This document shows positions 40,701 through 47,656 of a DNA stretch of 64,000 nucleotides, piece after piece. Both the position numbers and the translations under genes were made by a program. The notes under the pieces were generated by a model, which was not told the origin of the DNA, ran no database searches, and saw only the letters and a list, made by a program, of their open reading frames with translations. This DNA is from Dactylonectria macrodidyma (Eukaryota > Ascomycota > Sordariomycetes > Hypocreales > Nectriaceae): NCBI GenBank assembly GCA_020744425.1, contig JAGMUV010000045.1:1-64000 (forward strand), written 5' to 3'. How positions within the stretch are numbered: the first letter of the stretch is position 1; every line of letters starts with the position of its first letter.

Positions 40701-41687
40701 TCAAAATGGCCGCCTCTGGCGTCTTGTTTTCTCCTTCTCCCAAGCATATCTCGCAGCCCTATGAGTCTTCAAATACGCCGTGTGCATCTCCTTCGCAAAT
40801 CTCTCCACCCTCCAAGCAAGCTCCCACGTTGAATCCTCAGGTGGGTATCCAACCCACTGCACCAGGAATTGCAATTTCTCGTCCTTGGCCTTCCACCGGC
40901 GGATCCTAAAAACATGGAACAAATTTATTCCTGTTGCTGCCTCGCGACCTCCAATTAATTCCCAGTAGTGGTAGAGTATAAGTGGGCAGTCTTGTTGAAA
41001 GGTACGCTCATCGACGAGCGTGGGCTCGGAGCAGCCAGCCCATTTGATCATGATCTCAACCTCGGTTTTGTTTTTGGTGCGGTGACTGATGATTGCTTCG
41101 GCTTCGTATCTCGGCTCTTCTGTCTCAGGCTTGGCTAATTCAGCCGTATTATCTGCGTCAGTTGGCTCCTCTGGATCCTCTGACTTGCTTGTGTCCTTTC
41201 GCTCGGCCGAATTCTTTTTCTGCTTCTTGCCTTCCAGGTGCTTTCGGTCCTTTCCGCCCTCCATCTCGCCATGAGACGTCGGCTTATCTTCACTGTCGAG
41301 TTTAGGTAAACCATCGTGATTCCTTGGCGCAAAGTAAGCGACATCTGGCCCGAGGCTTGGGGGCTGGACAACCTCTGAGGCCTCGTCTCGCATTATTGTA
41401 TTGTGTGCGGTCTCAGTCTGGTCGTCTATCATCTGGCCCGTAGAATAGAGAATGGCGGACTCGGTGGCATTCAAACACGCCAACACCAGAAGCGGGCTGA
41501 CTTCGGTAGGAAAGTCACGTTTGTCGTTCGCATAGAGGCCCTTGAGATCTGAGTGCTTTATAGATTGTCGGCGTCTAGTCAATGCACCATGTACAATCGT
41601 CTTTGCACCGAAGATGCGTGAGAGCTGGACGAAACGCGATCGGCGCGTGGTGCCGGCGTTGACTCTCCTCGTTCTCGTTCTGGCCAT
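40701..41687 (-). CDS. double-chromodomain protein
   Basis: 328 residues from ATG 41687, no intron needed. A basic N-terminus (ARTRTRRVNAGTTRRSRFVQL) precedes a charged linker rich in Lys/Glu/Asp (120-185). Chromodomain 1 is at about 185-240 (YEAEAIISHRTKNKTEVEIMIKWAG...TLVDERTFQQDCPLILYHYWELIGG). Chromodomain 2 is at about 250-300 (FHVFRIRRWKAKDEKLQFLVQWVGYPPEDSTWE). The second keeps the aromatic cage pattern (Y/F...W...W), the first is more diverged. Such proteins bind methylated histone tails. Its 3' end is 15 bp from that of the ligase-domain gene (convergent), and it lies just outside the integrase element. Chromodomain genes in fungal accessory regions can be domesticated from retrotransposons; that origin is inference. 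Confidence 0.75.
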   Translation of the reverse strand: MARTRTRRVNAGTTRRSRFVQLSRIFGAKTIVHGALTRRRQSIKHSDLKGLYANDKRDFPTEVSPLLVLACLNATESAILYSTGQMIDDQTETAHNTIMRDEASEVVQPPSLGPDVAYFAPRNHDGLPKLDSEDKPTSHGEMEGGKDRKHLEGKKQKKNSAERKDTSKSEDPEEPTDADNTAELAKPETEEPRYEAEAIISHRTKNKTEVEIMIKWAGCSEPTLVDERTFQQDCPLILYHYWELIGGREAATGINLFHVFRIRRWKAKDEKLQFLVQWVGYPPEDSTWELAWRVERFAKEMHTAYLKTHRAARYAWEKEKTRRQRRPF

Positions 41688-41930
41688 TGTGCGGCTTGAG
41701 GAGAAGCAGTAGGGTTGAGGGTAATCCGACGGAAAGCGATTGAGTCTGATGCGTGCAAGGGAGGCTCGCTTAGTTTACAGATGAGAGAAAAGAGGGTTTG
41801 CAGTTGCGTGATGAAGAGCCAAGTCAGTTTTCCACCGGGTTTGCGAGAGACAGTATCGTGTCGATTGGGTAAATTAGTTGACCCGTTTTTTGGGGGGATT
41901 TTGATCTTGAGTGTCGTGACCCGGCCGGTA
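41688..41930. other. upstream of chromodomain gene
   Basis: Presumed promoter of the minus-strand chromodomain gene. No other feature seen. Confidence 0.4.
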
Positions 41931-42166
41931 GATTACGGTTTGGATTGGATTTTATTTCGCCCGGAGGGAAGTCCCTATAGGGCCTTGACACCATCTAGTT
42001 CACATTTCAGAACATTTGGTACCTGACACCCCAAGCCCCACGGAAATAGATTACGGTTGGATTGGATTGGATTTTATTTCGCCCGGAGGGAAGTCCCTAT
42101 AGGGCCTTGACACAATCTAGTTCACATTTCAGAACATTTGGTACCTGACACCCCAAGCCCCACGGA
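41931..42166. repeat. tandem duplication, 118-bp period, two copies
   Basis: GATTACGGTTTGGATTGG... from 41931 repeats from 42049 with very few changes; the second copy has one extra ATTGG unit and one C-to-A change (CACCATC/CACAATC). Both copies end CCCCAAGCCCCACGG. No coding sense; it lies between the chromodomain gene and the integrase element. Confidence 0.9.
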
Positions 42167-42837
42167 TCGTCGCGTCTCATCGCTTGCTGCTCAACCTCGT
42201 CGCTGCTTATTCCATGACAGGCCTGCTTGAAGGCCAAATTCTGCAAGTGTTCGATAGGGGGCACTGTTGCAAAACCCCCAGTCGTTTCCTTTTGGGTTTA
42301 GGCGCTCATCTCCTTAGTCATCTCAGTACTTTGGGTCGCGATAGGATATGTACTGCGGACTAGCAGCGGGCTCGCACGGTGGCCTCAGGTCCGATTTCTT
42401 GCTCAATGTCGACAGGTGGGAAATGGTGAACTGGTTGCGACCACACAGATACCGGTACTTCACAGCAACATATCCCCAACACAGTTCGGACAATCTTCAG
42501 TTGGTCATTTCTAAACTAATCCACTACCTAACTGTCTTTGCTATTTTCGCAATCGAAACGCAATTATGTCAGAAATCTCGCTGGCTTAGCTGCCAATTCA
42601 GCTTCCGCTCGCGATGAGGAGCAGCGTGGTGAGCCCACAAGAGCTCACCGCAGTAATCCCGCTCCGGGTCAGCAGCGGACTAGCGTAGCAACCTCCTGCT
42701 TAAATGAGCCTAGTGACTTCAACCACTATCATAGGAAAGGCCGATGTTGTTTGCTCTTGTTAAATTAAAACCTCAGTAGAAACCGGACTCTCCCATTTTC
42801 TCCTTTTTACGTCTTTCACCTCCTCTCTTCAACCGAA

Positions 42838-44199
42838 ATGGGCCCTCCAAAGATCCCCCCGGAGCATGTATATTGCGTCCAAGCCGGAAAGAAGCACCAT
42901 GAACTCTTCACCACCATGTATGTTGACGCGAATTACTGTGGCCGTTGCGGCTTGGCCAACCCCTTTCGGCCCCAGCATCAAGCCAGATCCAAAACTCCGG
43001 CACTTCCGGGCCCATACGATGAGGTGGTGGAGGTTGAGGACTCCCCGCCACGGCCAGTCAGTCCAGCAAGCCAGCTGCTGCGCGGCAGACCGAAACCAGT
43101 ATCATTCATCGGCATTGAACACACGGCTCAACTGCTCGCCAACGAAGTATCTGCTCCCGGCACGGTGAATACACGAGCACGCATACCTCGTCCTGAGGCG
43201 CCAGGCAATCCCCAGTTCATGACAGTTGCATCAGCGGCCAGTCGGGCCATACAGAATTCAAAAGCCAGTACCAGAAAGCCCATGCGGCAGCGAACAGGAT
43301 ACCAGTGGGTACACATAAGTCTCCTGCTTGTGAGCTTGGAGACCAGGTACTTCAACGGGCTTGCAGTGGAGGTTCCGGAGACGGTGCTGTCTCTGAAAGA
43401 TACGGTGATCAAGTTTTCCTCGGCAGATTTACTGACTTGGCCCTCATTCATCGCGATTTTGTTCGACCATCTCCGTCCGCTCCCGCCTACAATCGATCTC
43501 ACGAACAGAGACCTCTGGAGCCTTTCTTACGCTTCGAGTTTCTCTGGCAAGAAGATCGTCACCGTTCCCAACACTGATAAGTACACGACCCCGTCGAGTA
43601 TGCTCGCCTCGGGGCACTTTGGCAACAACCAGGCGGGACAGTTGAAGGTGCTAGTCGTCCTTACATCCACGGATGTAGTCGACAAGCAGGAGCCAGTTAC
43701 ACCGCTTAGGCCGGATGAATACTCCACGCCAGTCAAGGAAGAAAAGAAACGGAAGGTCAAGCAAGAAGACACGAGTCCTGCTCCCCGGCACAAGAAGCGC
43801 GTCAAGCAGGAGGAACATACCAAGAAGGAGAGGAGCACCGGGGACACGGAGCAGGTCAAGCAGGAGGTACACGTCAAGGTAAAGCCGGAAGAGCCTGTCC
43901 TGACTACCTCCCGCCAGAACCCAACGGACGATGAGCTTGAAGATATTGTTGAGGAGATCATTGTACACGAAGATGTGGCGGATCTCTGTGAAGTGGAAGA
44001 TCTGCTTCGTGATCCAATGTTTGACGGCATCCCTGGCGTTAAGGGGAGTGGAGGTATGGTAGATATCGGAGACGAAGTGGACGAGGATGATGGTGAGGAA
44101 ATTTTGGTCCCGGAGTTCGTAAGAGACCAAATCACCTCGTTACAGAGTCTAGCATTAACACTGCCAGGTAACCTGAGAGTTCATCGCTCAAAGCATTAG
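42838..44199 (+). CDS. element-encoded protein with CxxC motif and SUMO-site-like cluster
   Basis: 453 residues, single exon, ATG in a good context (CAACCGAAATGGGC) after a pyrimidine-rich leader. The N-terminus HVYCVQAGKKHHELFTTMYVDANYCGRCGLANPF suggests a small metal site (C, HH, CxxC within 35 residues). A Pro-rich linker is followed by a folded middle (WVHISLLLVSLETRYFNGL...SADLLTWPSFIAILFDHLRPLPPTIDLTNRDLW...IVTVPNTDKYTTP). Residues about 295-365 hold five psi-K-x-E motifs (VKEE, VKQE three times, VKPE) among basic runs (KKRKVK, RHKKRVK). The acidic C-terminus (DEVDEDDGEEI) ends VHRSKH. No family recognised. As a partner of the integrase it may bind element ends or a chromatin factor; that is inference. 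Confidence 0.75.
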   Translation: MGPPKIPPEHVYCVQAGKKHHELFTTMYVDANYCGRCGLANPFRPQHQARSKTPALPGPYDEVVEVEDSPPRPVSPASQLLRGRPKPVSFIGIEHTAQLLANEVSAPGTVNTRARIPRPEAPGNPQFMTVASAASRAIQNSKASTRKPMRQRTGYQWVHISLLLVSLETRYFNGLAVEVPETVLSLKDTVIKFSSADLLTWPSFIAILFDHLRPLPPTIDLTNRDLWSLSYASSFSGKKIVTVPNTDKYTTPSSMLASGHFGNNQAGQLKVLVVLTSTDVVDKQEPVTPLRPDEYSTPVKEEKKRKVKQEDTSPAPRHKKRVKQEEHTKKERSTGDTEQVKQEVHVKVKPEEPVLTTSRQNPTDDELEDIVEEIIVHEDVADLCEVEDLLRDPMFDGIPGVKGSGGMVDIGDEVDEDDGEEILVPEFVRDQITSLQSLALTLPGNLRVHRSKH

Positions 44200-44323
44200 G
44201 GGCGATCAAGCTCGACTGCCTGGCCCTGATATCGATGAGGCGCTTCCACCAGCACGATCCACACGCTTCAAAGGAACAAAGATCCCCGCAACATTTGCTG
44301 TCCGACATAACAGGAAGGATTGA

Positions 44324-46051
44324 CTACTCGGGCTCCTCATTTGAAATCTCGCTATCCTCCCCGTCATCACTTATTCCCTCCAAATCGTTCCCTTCTTCGT
44401 CCTCATATCCTAGTTCAACAAGTGGTTGCTCTGCAGGTTCCCCATCTCCAAGTTCATCGTAAGAGGCCTGATTTGCTCGCTCATGCAATGTCCCCTATAT
44501 GAGTTTAGACTTGCCAACCCGTAGTGGAACGGCGAAACTTACGTATTCTGCAACGCCCCCTGTTGGTGCTTTGCGATATGCCAACACAGGCTGCTGGCCA
44601 CTTTCGATATGCTGAATGATCCTACCTCGAAGTCCAAGATAGAAACGCTTGAAAGGCCGCAACTTATCGGGCTCCTGGTGAGTCCCATTGACCGCGTCGT
44701 TGTAGCCCATTCCAACGAGAACTTGGCGACACCAATCCTTTGTCTCTGGCTCCAAGCAGGTGCTAATGTCGATATCAGCCAATGGTCGGTGCAGTTCGTC
44801 GAGAACGGAGTGGTCAATAGGGATGCCCCAGTTGCATGCCTTGTCTGGATCGGGGTAGTGGTAATTCATCCAGGGCTGACCGTGGACCACGTGAGGACGG
44901 TTCTTCTGAAGGCGAATGCGATGAAGGTTCCACGTTTCCACAAAGTCGAAGAGCTCTTGACGTAATATATCTTCGAAGACGGCGTAGATGGCGATCTGAT
45001 CCTCCAACATATCGCCGTCAAAATCCCCGTCCCTGGCGAGTTCCCCAAAGTAGTCTACCCACTGTCGGGAGGAGACGTGCAGCATGCTCTCCCACCATTT
45101 CTCGATCTTGACATTCTTTGTGCTCGGTGCGGCCTTGTAGGAATCCTTTAGGCGCTTCCCTTGTTGGAAGACCTTCCCATTCCACTCCACCCGTCCATCT
45201 GCTGCCAAAGCAAAGTTCCAATGGGCTGCTGCGACTAGTGGAGTTTCGCTGCCTCTGTCTGCCTGCAGATACCATGGCCGGAAACCGTAGGCGTCACATG
45301 CGGCCAAGTATTGCTTCAAGACGCTCAAAGCAGTTGTAGCAGAGTGGCCAACATAGAACCAAATAATGTTGCGCGAGTAAGCGTCGATTGCGGCATATAT
45401 CTCGAATCCGTACGCCTTGAGCTTATCATGCCCATCAATGCACCACTGGTAATTTGGTCCTGGAACAAGGAATTGTCCCTTCTTTCGCCGAAACATCCTT
45501 TTCCGAATATCGACCTCATTTGGGAACATGATTTTGTACATCGCAAAGAGAGGGTCTCTTGGTACCCAGAGCTGCCTTTGCTGACGAAGATAAGGCTGAA
45601 GGAGGCTTTTTCCATACCCGGATATGGCATTAGAACGTCGTGTCATTTCGATGATGACTTGCTCTGTCTTCTCTAGCAACGCAAGACGTTCTTCATCGCT
45701 ATTAATCCTGCGTACCCAGCGGCGGTCTGGGTGAAGCCTGATGCGCTTCAGACCTCGTCTCGTAATCGGCCAGCCCTGTCTCTGGAGAACGCTCAATGTC
45801 TGCTTCTCGCTGAGCCCAACGCGAAATATCAGGTCGCGGGTGGCCTCTATCAGCTGTGGACTTTCTTTTGTGCGGGCTTGCTGGCGTGGGAGATCCCAGC
45901 TTGCGATTCGGCGAGAGATTGTGCTAAGATTGACGGTGACATGATGATGCTTCCGAAGCTTGTACTGAATCCCTCGTCGCGAGATACCGTTGAGGTAGAG
46001 ATGAGTGACGTAGTCGCGGTGTTGATCGATTGGGTTGGGCGGACGTGCCAT
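44324..46051 (-). CDS. retroviral-type (rve-fold) DDE integrase
   Basis: Exons (minus strand) 46051-44543 and 44494-44324, with a 48-bp intron (GTAAGT...TATAG, phase 0); 559 residues from MARPPNPIDQ. An in-frame ATG at 46246 would add 65 low-quality residues and is less likely. Residues 8-55 form a resolvase-like helix-turn-helix (HRDYVTHLYLNGISRRGIQYKLRKHH); WPITRRGLKRIRLHPDRRW (94-112) extends it. Catalytic core: D206 (WCIDGHDKL), with D223 (AIDAYSRNIIWFYVG) on the next strand, D265 (LQADRGSET) and E317 (VKIEKWWESM), 51 residues apart, near the D35E spacing plus an insert. The C-terminus is acidic. This resembles the 'integrase core domain' proteins scattered in fungal and animal genomes; I cannot name the superfamily. 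Likely catalyses strand transfer of the surrounding element. Confidence 0.85.
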
Positions 46052-46303
46052 TTTTGACTGGGCGAAGTCGAAGAAGGGATGGACGAACTTGTTGGTCCTG
46101 GTAATAAGAAAAGGGGGCGATGCAGCCTGGTATACCGCACTGGTCCGCAGCGGTATTGCAACTGGCCCGCTGCGGTGACTCGCCCGGAACGGCTTAGTGT
46201 CAAGTTGCTCATTGGTGGAACCCGACCAAACCAGGGGCAGGGCCAATATTTACAGAACATAGATCCCTTCCAACCCTAGTTCCACCTTCCCTTTTATACC
46301 ATC
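46052..46303. promoter_or_regulatory. divergent promoter region of integrase and Cys-motif gene
   Basis: A 252-bp gap between two divergently read genes of the element. TTTTATA at about 46292 precedes the plus-strand ATG by about 10 bp. GCAGCGGTATTGCAACTGGCCCGCTGCGG (written here as the two half sites GCAGCGG and CCGCTGC, 46148-46175) forms an imperfect palindrome that could be a protein-binding site; this is speculative. Confidence 0.4.
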
Positions 46304-47139
46304 ATGTCAGTGGAAAAGCTCATGGTCAGCAACGGCGCTATGCCCGCGGTCGATCCTGCCATCGTTAGTGAGACTCATGGCGTGACAGATGGGGACTGTC
46401 GCGGCCGGAACGCCGCAGTGAAGAGGGGCAGAAGATTGATTCAGCCCAGCATCCGCAAACCCACAGCCAAGATTACCGTACGGTCAGCAAGTCCTCACGC
46501 GAAGTCATGGATGCTAACTTGCCCATCCGAACAGAAGAAGAAGCAGACGAAGAAGGCCCCTCCCCGCGGTTCAGTGCGTCACTTCCCATGCCGGCAATGC
46601 GTCACCCGCGCCACCAAGGCTCCCGGCCATGAATGTGCTTCTCAAGATAGTATGCTTGGTTGCCCAAGGCATACTCCTCGTACGCTGACATCTACGGCGT
46701 AGATACGGGTGCTGCGTGCTGGGACTGCGCAAAGAACGGCCACACATGCAGGCCGGTAAGGCATCTCTGCGCCCTGTCAGCTAACGAGCCACTGACCCCG
46801 CTGCATCTCCAGGTTCCCGTTGAAGCTCATGCTGTTGTACGTGCCTTTTGGGATCTTAACCGGCTCAGCGGCGCGGATGACATTCCAGACGAGGCCTGGT
46901 GTGCTGCTGCACAGCGGGCAGCGCAACAATTACGAGCTTGCGGCAGTGGTGCGGTCCCTCCTGCTACTCCACGACCAGCTCCTGCTTTGGCTTCGTTTGG
47001 CGAAGTAGCTGAGAGGAGCCTCGAGGAGAGAAAGGTTATAGCGCTGGAGACCATCGCTGGGGCTGCTCGGCTCTGGATTGTGAGTATGGTCAAGTCGGAA
47101 GATGCAAGTTCGAGTACTGACTCCATGTTCAGCAGCTGA
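46304..47139 (+). CDS. element-encoded small protein with paired Cys motifs
   Basis: Four exons: 46304-46477, 46535-46649, 46703-46755, 46813-47139; introns 57, 53 and 57 bp (GTACGG/ACAG, GTATGC/GTAG, GTAAGG/CCAG). All phases close, giving 222 residues. The splicing joins FPCRQCVTRATKAPGHECASQD|NTGAACWDCAKNGHTCRP|VPVEAHAVVRAFWDLNRL. This yields a compact C-x2-C...C...C-x2-C...C metal-binding module of about 40 residues, split over three exons. The N-terminus is basic (KRGRRLIQPSIRKPTAKITV). The remainder is helical (IPDEAWCAAAQRAAQQLRAC; ERSLEERKVIALETIAGAARLWIVSMV). No known family. Position inside the TIRs suggests a DNA- or RNA-binding accessory protein of the transposon. Confidence 0.75.
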
Positions 47140-47440
47140 GTCAGCCGGACGAGGAGGAGGAGGAGGAGGGAGATGAGGAAGAGAATGAGGATAATTGAGT
47201 AGTGTCTGTTTCCAATCCAACCGCCACTTGATGCCGCATGTCGTTGTGAATGGAATTGAATGCATTCTGCTGGTTCGCTGCGGACTCGTTGCTGTGACTG
47301 CATCTTCCGTGCCGACCCCAAAAATCACGAAATTCAAGCTGAGGTACAAACTTCAATGTACTGCGGGGCCGTTTGACAATGCCGCTAACCCAATTCGGCA
47401 CCTTCGAGTGATTTTGGAGGTTTTGCAACAGTGACCCCTA

Positions 47441-47656
47441 TAGCCTGCCATAGTGTACGGCTAGGCGAACAACGGGTGCGGCAGGCGGTGTGAGCAGTGT
47501 GATGTAGCTCTTTGTAACAAAGGGAATTGGTGGGACTTCTATCACCACCTAAAATAGGTGGGGGCAGAGGTACCTTTCATTTGGGTTATTTTTGTTGGTC
47601 AAGACTCCTGTCACTAGCGCAAGTGTAGCCTTACCCCTTACGGCACCTCTGAGGGA
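47441..47656 (+). pseudogene. PiggyBac-domain transposase tail and 3' end
   Basis: CEQCDVALCNKGNWWDFYHHLK-stop (47489-47557) is the C-terminal ribbon seen at 6972-7060 and 56900-56974. It is followed by the family 3' region (GGTACCTTTCATTTGG, 47570-47586; TCAAGACTCCTGTCACT) and a likely TIR ending GGCACCTCTGAGGGA at 47656 with TA next. Nothing of the 5' part remains; the integrase element starts next to it. Confidence 0.7.

Follow-up and report, generated by a model that had tools for sequence, protein, structure and literature searches.

A probable IS3EU-superfamily transposon with two selected partner genes in the fungus Dactylonectria macrodidyma

The first 64,000 nucleotides of contig JAGMUV010000045.1 of Dactylonectria macrodidyma (assembly GCA_020744425.1, forward strand; the window) contain, between positions 42253 and 47452, a feature that is in all likelihood a copy of an IS3EU-superfamily DNA transposon with two partner genes under selection. 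Three genes lie inside its terminal inverted repeat (TIR): P1 and P2 on the plus strand and an integrase-type transposase on the minus strand, with P1 convergent and P2 divergent relative to the integrase (Table 1). The assignment to the IS3EU/GingerRoot lineage follows from the termini, the target duplications and the traits of the DDE transposase taken together. The excerpted text of PMC10045372 gives TA..TA termini and duplications of usually 6 bp for complete IS3EU families, and that of PMC12730594 gives TAYGG..CCRTA ends and TIRs longer than 30 bp for rust-fungus IS3EU elements bearing TET/JBP. In D. macrodidyma, 45 of the 58 ends that we classified start with TAYGG, duplications of 6 bp flank 6 of the 12 complete pairs of ends in the subfamily of the window element, and the TIR of the copy at locus L016 is 37 bases long with 3 mismatches, as counted by eye. 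As is usual for IS3EU transposases, which have their first D 100–300 residues from the N-terminus and lack an HHCC domain, the window protein has D206 in this range, and a Pfam scan reported no HHCC family in it. The preliminary description of the window, made from its letters, had held that integrases of this kind were without a known bounded element. This is not supported, as IS3EU is established (PMC10045372) and the IS3EU-type element Styx of Zymoseptoria is published (PMC10853768). The D. macrodidyma element is a variant within this known superfamily, and it differs from the members compared here in its gene set of P1, P2 and integrase. Fungal IS3EU elements with TET/JBP carry a TET/JBP dioxygenase and an alpha-kinase according to the excerpt of PMC12730594, where the window element carries P1 and P2. 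Styx, as far as the excerpt of PMC10853768 describes it, has four genes (transposase, GATA, CCHC and DUF3577) in 7,927 bases, two of them putative DNA-binding partners, compared with three in about 5.2 kb here; the partners of the two elements are compared by description only. With the assignment, two families that Pfam does not name and the orphan 'integrase core domain' proteins in Hypocreales find their place in a single mobile element whose ends are defined, which makes transposition directly testable.

Table 1. Features of the IS3EU-type element and its left border in the window
Feature	Position	Strand	Details
Dispersed repeat, outside the element	42052..42252	+	97% identical in L019; extends beyond the join in L009 and L019
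Left terminal repeat, truncated	42253..42280	+	compare left end of L016, TACGGTGGGCGATAGGGGGCACTG
P1 gene	42838..44323	+	open frame 42838-44196 (453 aa); small 3' intron and final exon to 44323 suggested by homologs
P1 N-terminal Cys module, C13..H20..C34-x2-C37	42874..42948	+	26 sequences
P1 SUMO-interacting-like motif VVEVEDS	43024..43044	+	residues 63-69
P1 central domain	43294..43680	+	residues 153-281; possible ubiquitin-like (beta-grasp) fold
P1 tail, five psi-K-x-E sites	43732..43890	+	residues 299-351
Integrase-type DDE transposase	44324..46051	-	559 aa; intron 44495-44542
Catalytic core D206-E317	45101..45436	-	D206 45434-45436, D265 45257-45259, E317 45101-45103
Clr5-like N-terminal region, candidate DNA-binding part	45887..46033	-	residues 7-55; PF14420, 19.8 bits, below the cut-off of 22.3
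P2 gene	46304..47198	+	224 aa; introns 46478-46534, 46650-46702, 46756-46812, 47080-47132, predicted by eye
P2 six-Cys module, C-x2-C-x11-C-x9-C-x2-C-x6-C	46589..46749	+	interrupted by intron 2
Right terminal repeat, complete	47415..47452	-	ends in TATGGCAGGCTATAGGGG; true right end

The preliminary description had proposed a complete element with its edges at GGGG, flanked by TA as target duplication and enclosing three genes. The inverted repeat and the genes within it are real. Positions 42254-42280 and 47415-47441 are 93% complementary over 27 nt, and, with up to 3 mismatches allowed, the 20-base core of the repeat occurs in the window at these two places only (0.01 expected). Throughout the host genome (77.3 Mb in 77 contigs) the core finds 78 matches at up to 2 mismatches, compared with 2 for a reversed control pattern, which rules out recurrence of the TIR by chance, a result that the preliminary description had named as counting against it. 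The edges, in turn, had to be moved outward. Alignment of the flanks reveals 14 further bases common to the copies outside the GGGG edge, of the form TA[C/T]GG..ATA, beyond which the copies diverge. The terminal repeat reads TAYGG, six bases, ATA and then GGGG, or close variants thereof. The TA at the proposed edge is thus internal to the terminal repeat and is not a target duplication. On the right, the element is complete and ends at 47452 instead of 47438. On the left, the outer bases of the repeat, about 10 in number (TACGG...), are missing, and a dispersed repeat abuts GATAGGGG at 42253. Because of this damage the window copy lacks a clean left boundary and offers no duplication of its own for scoring; it has kept all three genes and has not kept two intact ends. 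No uninterrupted site was found for its right flank, the first 30 bases of which matched only themselves among the main matches listed.

The other copies define the ends and the target duplications. The 58 classified ends come from 41 loci (designated L) and are a subset of the 78 core matches. They comprise 45 canonical ends, 8 that are interrupted at an internal TATA and 5 that differ otherwise, including the left end of the window copy. Duplications were scored for those copies of which both ends were available, in 15 pairs and in 3 pairs completed later, the latter read by eye. We observe duplications in 11 of the 15, five of 6 bp and six of 5 bp. All are located beyond the terminal TA; those of 6 bp belong to L013, L016, L017, L024 and the nested copy of L011. 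Compared with the 6 bp usual in IS3EU, a sister subfamily of D. macrodidyma makes 5-bp duplications, in six of six pairs (L026, L027, L028, L038/39, L040/41 and L042/43). L010, L025, L034/35 and L036/37 have none. The three pairs completed later had been interrupted by another transposon; L023 shows a 6-bp duplication, and L012 and L015 show none, which brings the overall count to 12 of 18 complete pairs. When left and right ends of the 15 pairs were combined wrongly, none of the 210 pairings matched at 5 bp or more.

The interrupted ends form a separate observation. All 8 are broken at the same internal TATA by sequences that start with TATC[C/T]C or alike (L012:6630, L015:8675 and L023:2474, with far sides L067, L068 and L069; L020:1332, L021:1093 and L022:1224; L049 and L052). 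One of these inserts encodes a DDE_Tnp_1_7 transposase (E = 7.1e-35), which we take to be piggyBac-type, and similar frames were seen by eye in five other flanks. For three of four inserts whose far sides were sought, an inverted copy of the insert terminus is followed by the rest of the IS3EU end; the far side of the fourth, in L022, was not found. The same insert also occurs at other sites, so the internal TATA is a recurrent and not an exclusive target.

The integrase matches the Pfam family rva_4 (PF24764) with E = 4.8e-22, while rve (29.7 bits, cut-off 32.6) and Clr5 fall just under their cut-offs. Among solved structures, TnsB comes closest by sequence profile, a weak match with E = 0.04. 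From at least 60 homologs we chose 15 for alignment with the window protein; D206, D265 and E317 are invariant in these 16 proteins, which are 30–89% identical to the window integrase. The catalytic triad of the preliminary description therefore stands, and its helix-turn-helix (HTH) part would correspond to the Clr5-like N-terminus. The rve match would also suit a Ginger-type element, which would descend from the integrases of long terminal repeat retrotransposons or be their sister group. We consider this very improbable, given that Pfam reports no HHCC zinc-domain family in the integrase, that the termini are TA..TA and that the duplications measure 6 or 5 bp, compared with the 4 bp of Ginger1 and the 4 or 5 bp of Ginger2 given in PMC10045372. 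Ginger1 itself is excluded by the missing HHCC family and the duplication length. An element that targets TA, with a mariner-like duplication and bounds exactly at GGGG, is hardly credible: both GGGG edges of the window copy do have TA, but the repeat runs further out in most copies and its terminal TA is in turn flanked by the duplications of 5 or 6 bp. As these are not 2-bp duplications of TA, the Tc1/mariner-type class as a whole is excluded.

The gene set of the element is conserved in order and in sequence. Seven copies (window, L009, L012, L014, L015, L016 and L017) hold the three genes in one order and relative orientation, and both partners are also found in other fungi, in agreement with the expectation of the preliminary description that the element repeats in the genome with fixed partners. 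Pfam gave no family for either partner; both carry the Cys modules remarked on in the preliminary description. Homologs of the integrase (at least 60), of P2 (79) and of P1 (50) occur in Fusarium, Ilyonectria, Metarhizium, Beauveria, Stachybotrys, Colletotrichum, Verticillium and others; one P2 homolog, with 92% identity, is itself named Dactylonectria macrodidyma. Two inferred contigs of Ilyonectria robusta (236,966 and 1,222,346 bases) each contain all three families, a co-occurrence at the level of the contig. The gene tags of P1 and P2 differ by two in Stachybotrys chlorohalonatus (S40285_10795, 10797), Fusarium solani (FSOLCH5_015380, 015382) and F. oxysporum (LZL87_014324, 014322), and integrase and P2 are adjacent in F. 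solani (FSOLCH5_015189 and 015190). Ratios of nonsynonymous to synonymous substitution (dN/dS, Nei-Gojobori) were calculated for the window copy against chosen loci out of all copies. They amount to 0.03–0.11 for the integrase (7 copies, two with saturated dS), 0.16–0.28 for P1 (4 copies) and 0.23 and 0.44 for exon 4 of P2 (2 copies). All three genes are under purifying selection. The synonymous distance between the window copy and L009 is 0.50 for the integrase and 0.18 for P1, a gene-to-gene difference that may reflect exchange between elements.

In P2, all six Cys residues of the module are at least 90% conserved in 35 sequences (alignments of 19 and 35 sequences, chosen from 79 homologs). 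A Gal4-type Zn2Cys6 domain, which had been proposed by eye, was rejected because a solved-structure profile search returned only unrelated and weak CCHC matches, those with CCHC nucleocapsid proteins having E = 1.9 or worse. More can be learned from the diverged subfamilies, and the type of partnership recurs among them. In L026, L032 and L033 the integrases are 30–36% identical to that of the window. A Cys-rich protein is encoded upstream of each. Convergent with the integrase is the gene of a long protein that bears a C..H..C-x2-C module at its N-terminus, followed by an [I/V]DLT motif and a tail of basic character. At L029, one integrase has a P1-like gene (CxxC, IDLT) as its neighbour and another integrase a Cys-rich gene. 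Pfam assigns the Cys-rich protein to DUF3716 (PF12511) in L026 (E = 1.7e-11), L033 (3.4e-8) and L029 (1.6e-9), and for L032 its identification is by motif only; L033 has a second DUF3716 match at E = 1.3e-13 elsewhere in the locus. In diverged IS3EU subfamilies, DUF3716 thus occupies a position upstream of the integrase, and it resembles P2 in the spacing of its six Cys residues. In contrast to P2, which is divergent, the Cys-rich or DUF3716 gene of L026, L029, L032 and L033 points in the same direction as the integrase, and P2 itself has neither a Pfam nor a profile match to DUF3716. Membership of P2 in this family was rejected, as no Pfam family was found at E up to 10 and hhalign gave a probability of 0.11%; common descent of the two thus finds no support in a profile match by hhalign. 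For P1 and the P1-like proteins, a profile match covers the Cys module only (hhalign E = 2.2e-4, probability 44.7%) and is only suggestive of homology across subfamilies. DUF3716 gains a genomic setting as an IS3EU partner. The name was absent from the open-licence literature searched, and the short result lists obtained there contained neither the set of P1, P2 and integrase nor a link between DUF3716 and IS3EU.

P1 has no Pfam family and, by sequence profile, no solved-structure match at E up to 10. Within its N-terminal module, C13, C34 and C37 are invariant and H20 is nearly so in 26 sequences (alignments of 16 and 25 chosen from 50 homologs, plus the window protein). Its last exon was read by eye against the tails of homologs; should P1 share the conserved end of these tails, it and the integrase stop at the neighbouring bases 44323 and 44324. 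The VVEVEDS motif presumably belongs to the SUMO-interacting-like class, and the central domain could possibly adopt a ubiquitin-like fold, which we state with low confidence. SUMO-acceptor-like sites are five times more frequent in P1 proteins than expected from shuffled sequences (225 observed, 45.4 expected), compared with 46 observed and 35.1 expected in the integrase control. The count includes five window and locus frames and 50 P1 homologs, with L032 and L029 entering by the later part of the P1-like frame only, and the control the first 49 of the at least 60 integrase homologs. A role of P1 in transposition by way of SUMO is a tentative suggestion, to which we give less than even weight. 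If P1 does act by way of SUMO, the transposon would bring with it a means of entering a signalling system of chromatin. A SUMO adaptor encoded by a transposon itself is not known to us. None turned up in the titles and abstract beginnings of open-licence literature on transposase and SUMO, within short result lists. A host factor of Sleeping Beauty and SUMOylation are reportedly the subject of PMC10138897.

The preliminary description had predicted a recombination complex of the integrase with two nucleic-acid or chromatin-binding subunits. From the components described above, a working mechanism can be proposed. The integrase-type transposase would act on the terminal repeats of about 37 bp ending in TAYGG..CCRTA, cut the ends and join them to target DNA with a 6-bp stagger. 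The HTH-like N-terminus of the integrase and P2 might bind terminal or subterminal DNA, P2 most likely by a zinc module built from its six Cys residues. P1 would most likely be an adaptor that combines the Cys module, the SUMO-interacting-like motif, the possible ubiquitin-like fold and the tail of SUMO-acceptor-like sites, and it could link the transposase complex with SUMO-marked chromatin or with factors of repair. In its widest form, the proposal makes ascomycete IS3EU a conserved three-protein system with the P2/DUF3716 class supplying DNA binding and P1 as dedicated SUMO-pathway subunit, which would read SUMO by its motif, carry several SUMO modifications and thereby link the integrase with SUMO-marked chromatin or repair. 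We regard this reading as a whole as rather unlikely.

Comparison of nearly identical copies indicates what the element needs for movement. L016 (998-6151) and L017 (1025-6178) are 100% identical over 5,156 bases and lie at different sites with different 6-bp duplications, and their integrase reading contains 24 stops. Hence a defective copy moved after it was damaged, most simply by means of an enzyme made elsewhere. Defective copies can thus be mobilised, and degenerate Styx copies move as well (excerpt of PMC10853768). An origin of many TAG and TAA stops in repeat-induced point mutation (RIP) is only suggested. A form of 2,965 bases that holds only the integrase is present in L010 and nested in L011, with 98.9% identity from end to end. 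L013 is the same form, 97–98% identical in two aligned parts with an insert of about 5 kb between them and four stops in the integrase. L011 and L013 have duplications and L010 has none. The nested L011 copy sits in the integrase gene of an older element, and its two flanks, when matched to the window integrase, have 6 bases in common, the overlap to be expected of a 6-bp duplication. Its left junction additionally holds some 200 bases of another repeat. Internally deleted derivatives of 1,453 bases are 99.7–99.8% identical in two comparisons. Integrases without the flanking genes had been named in the preliminary description as speaking against it, and they do exist in part, as these TIR-bounded elements at three sites (97–99% identical). 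Together with the moved copy with 24 stops, they show that the partners are not required in cis.

Several points weigh against our account of an IS3EU transposon with selected partners that serve its movement. Half of the complete pairs in the window subfamily (6 of 12) have no duplication, and the placement in IS3EU is one made by traits. Shallow comparisons give higher dN/dS, 0.46–0.54 for the integrase-only copies and 0.49 for P1 of L014/L015, and some synonymous distances are saturated. The excess of sites in P1 comes largely from close relatives; in four diverged P1-like sequences it has p values of 0.008, 0.046, 0.088 and 0.276. AlphaFold2 models are poor, with a mean predicted local distance difference test score of 43 for P1 and 50 for P2. 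Finally, since integrase-only copies have moved, the partners need not serve transposition and may do something else. P1 and P2 could shield the element from silencing by heterochromatin or RIP, or tune its expression, as has been proposed for TET/JBP. Besides the mobility of integrase-only copies, this explanation has a precedent in the escape from methylation silencing that the excerpted text of PMC12730594 proposes for TET/JBP genes in DNA transposons including IS3EU, and the SUMO-like signals of P1 would suit a chromatin role as well. However, partner types in the same positions accompany integrases that are only 30–36% identical, which is unusual for captured cargo, and the integrase-only movers could have used partners from full copies. 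We consider protection from silencing a real alternative, though one that falls short of even probability.

The surroundings of the element contain further repeats. The dispersed repeat at the left border has a TTTCGCCCGGAGGGAAGTCCCTATAGGG core and abuts IS3EU left ends in the window (42052-42252) and in L019 (607-806 and 928-1160). It is also found in L009:1-106, and a similar stretch occurs at the left junction of the nested L011 copy. In the right flank, 47484-47635 is a repeat of about 150 bases with about 40 other matches in the genome, and similar stretches flank L020 and L022. To the left of the element, a frame of 357 aa on the minus strand (40704-41774) matches Chromo (E = 8e-13) and Chromo_shadow (E = 1.6e-4).

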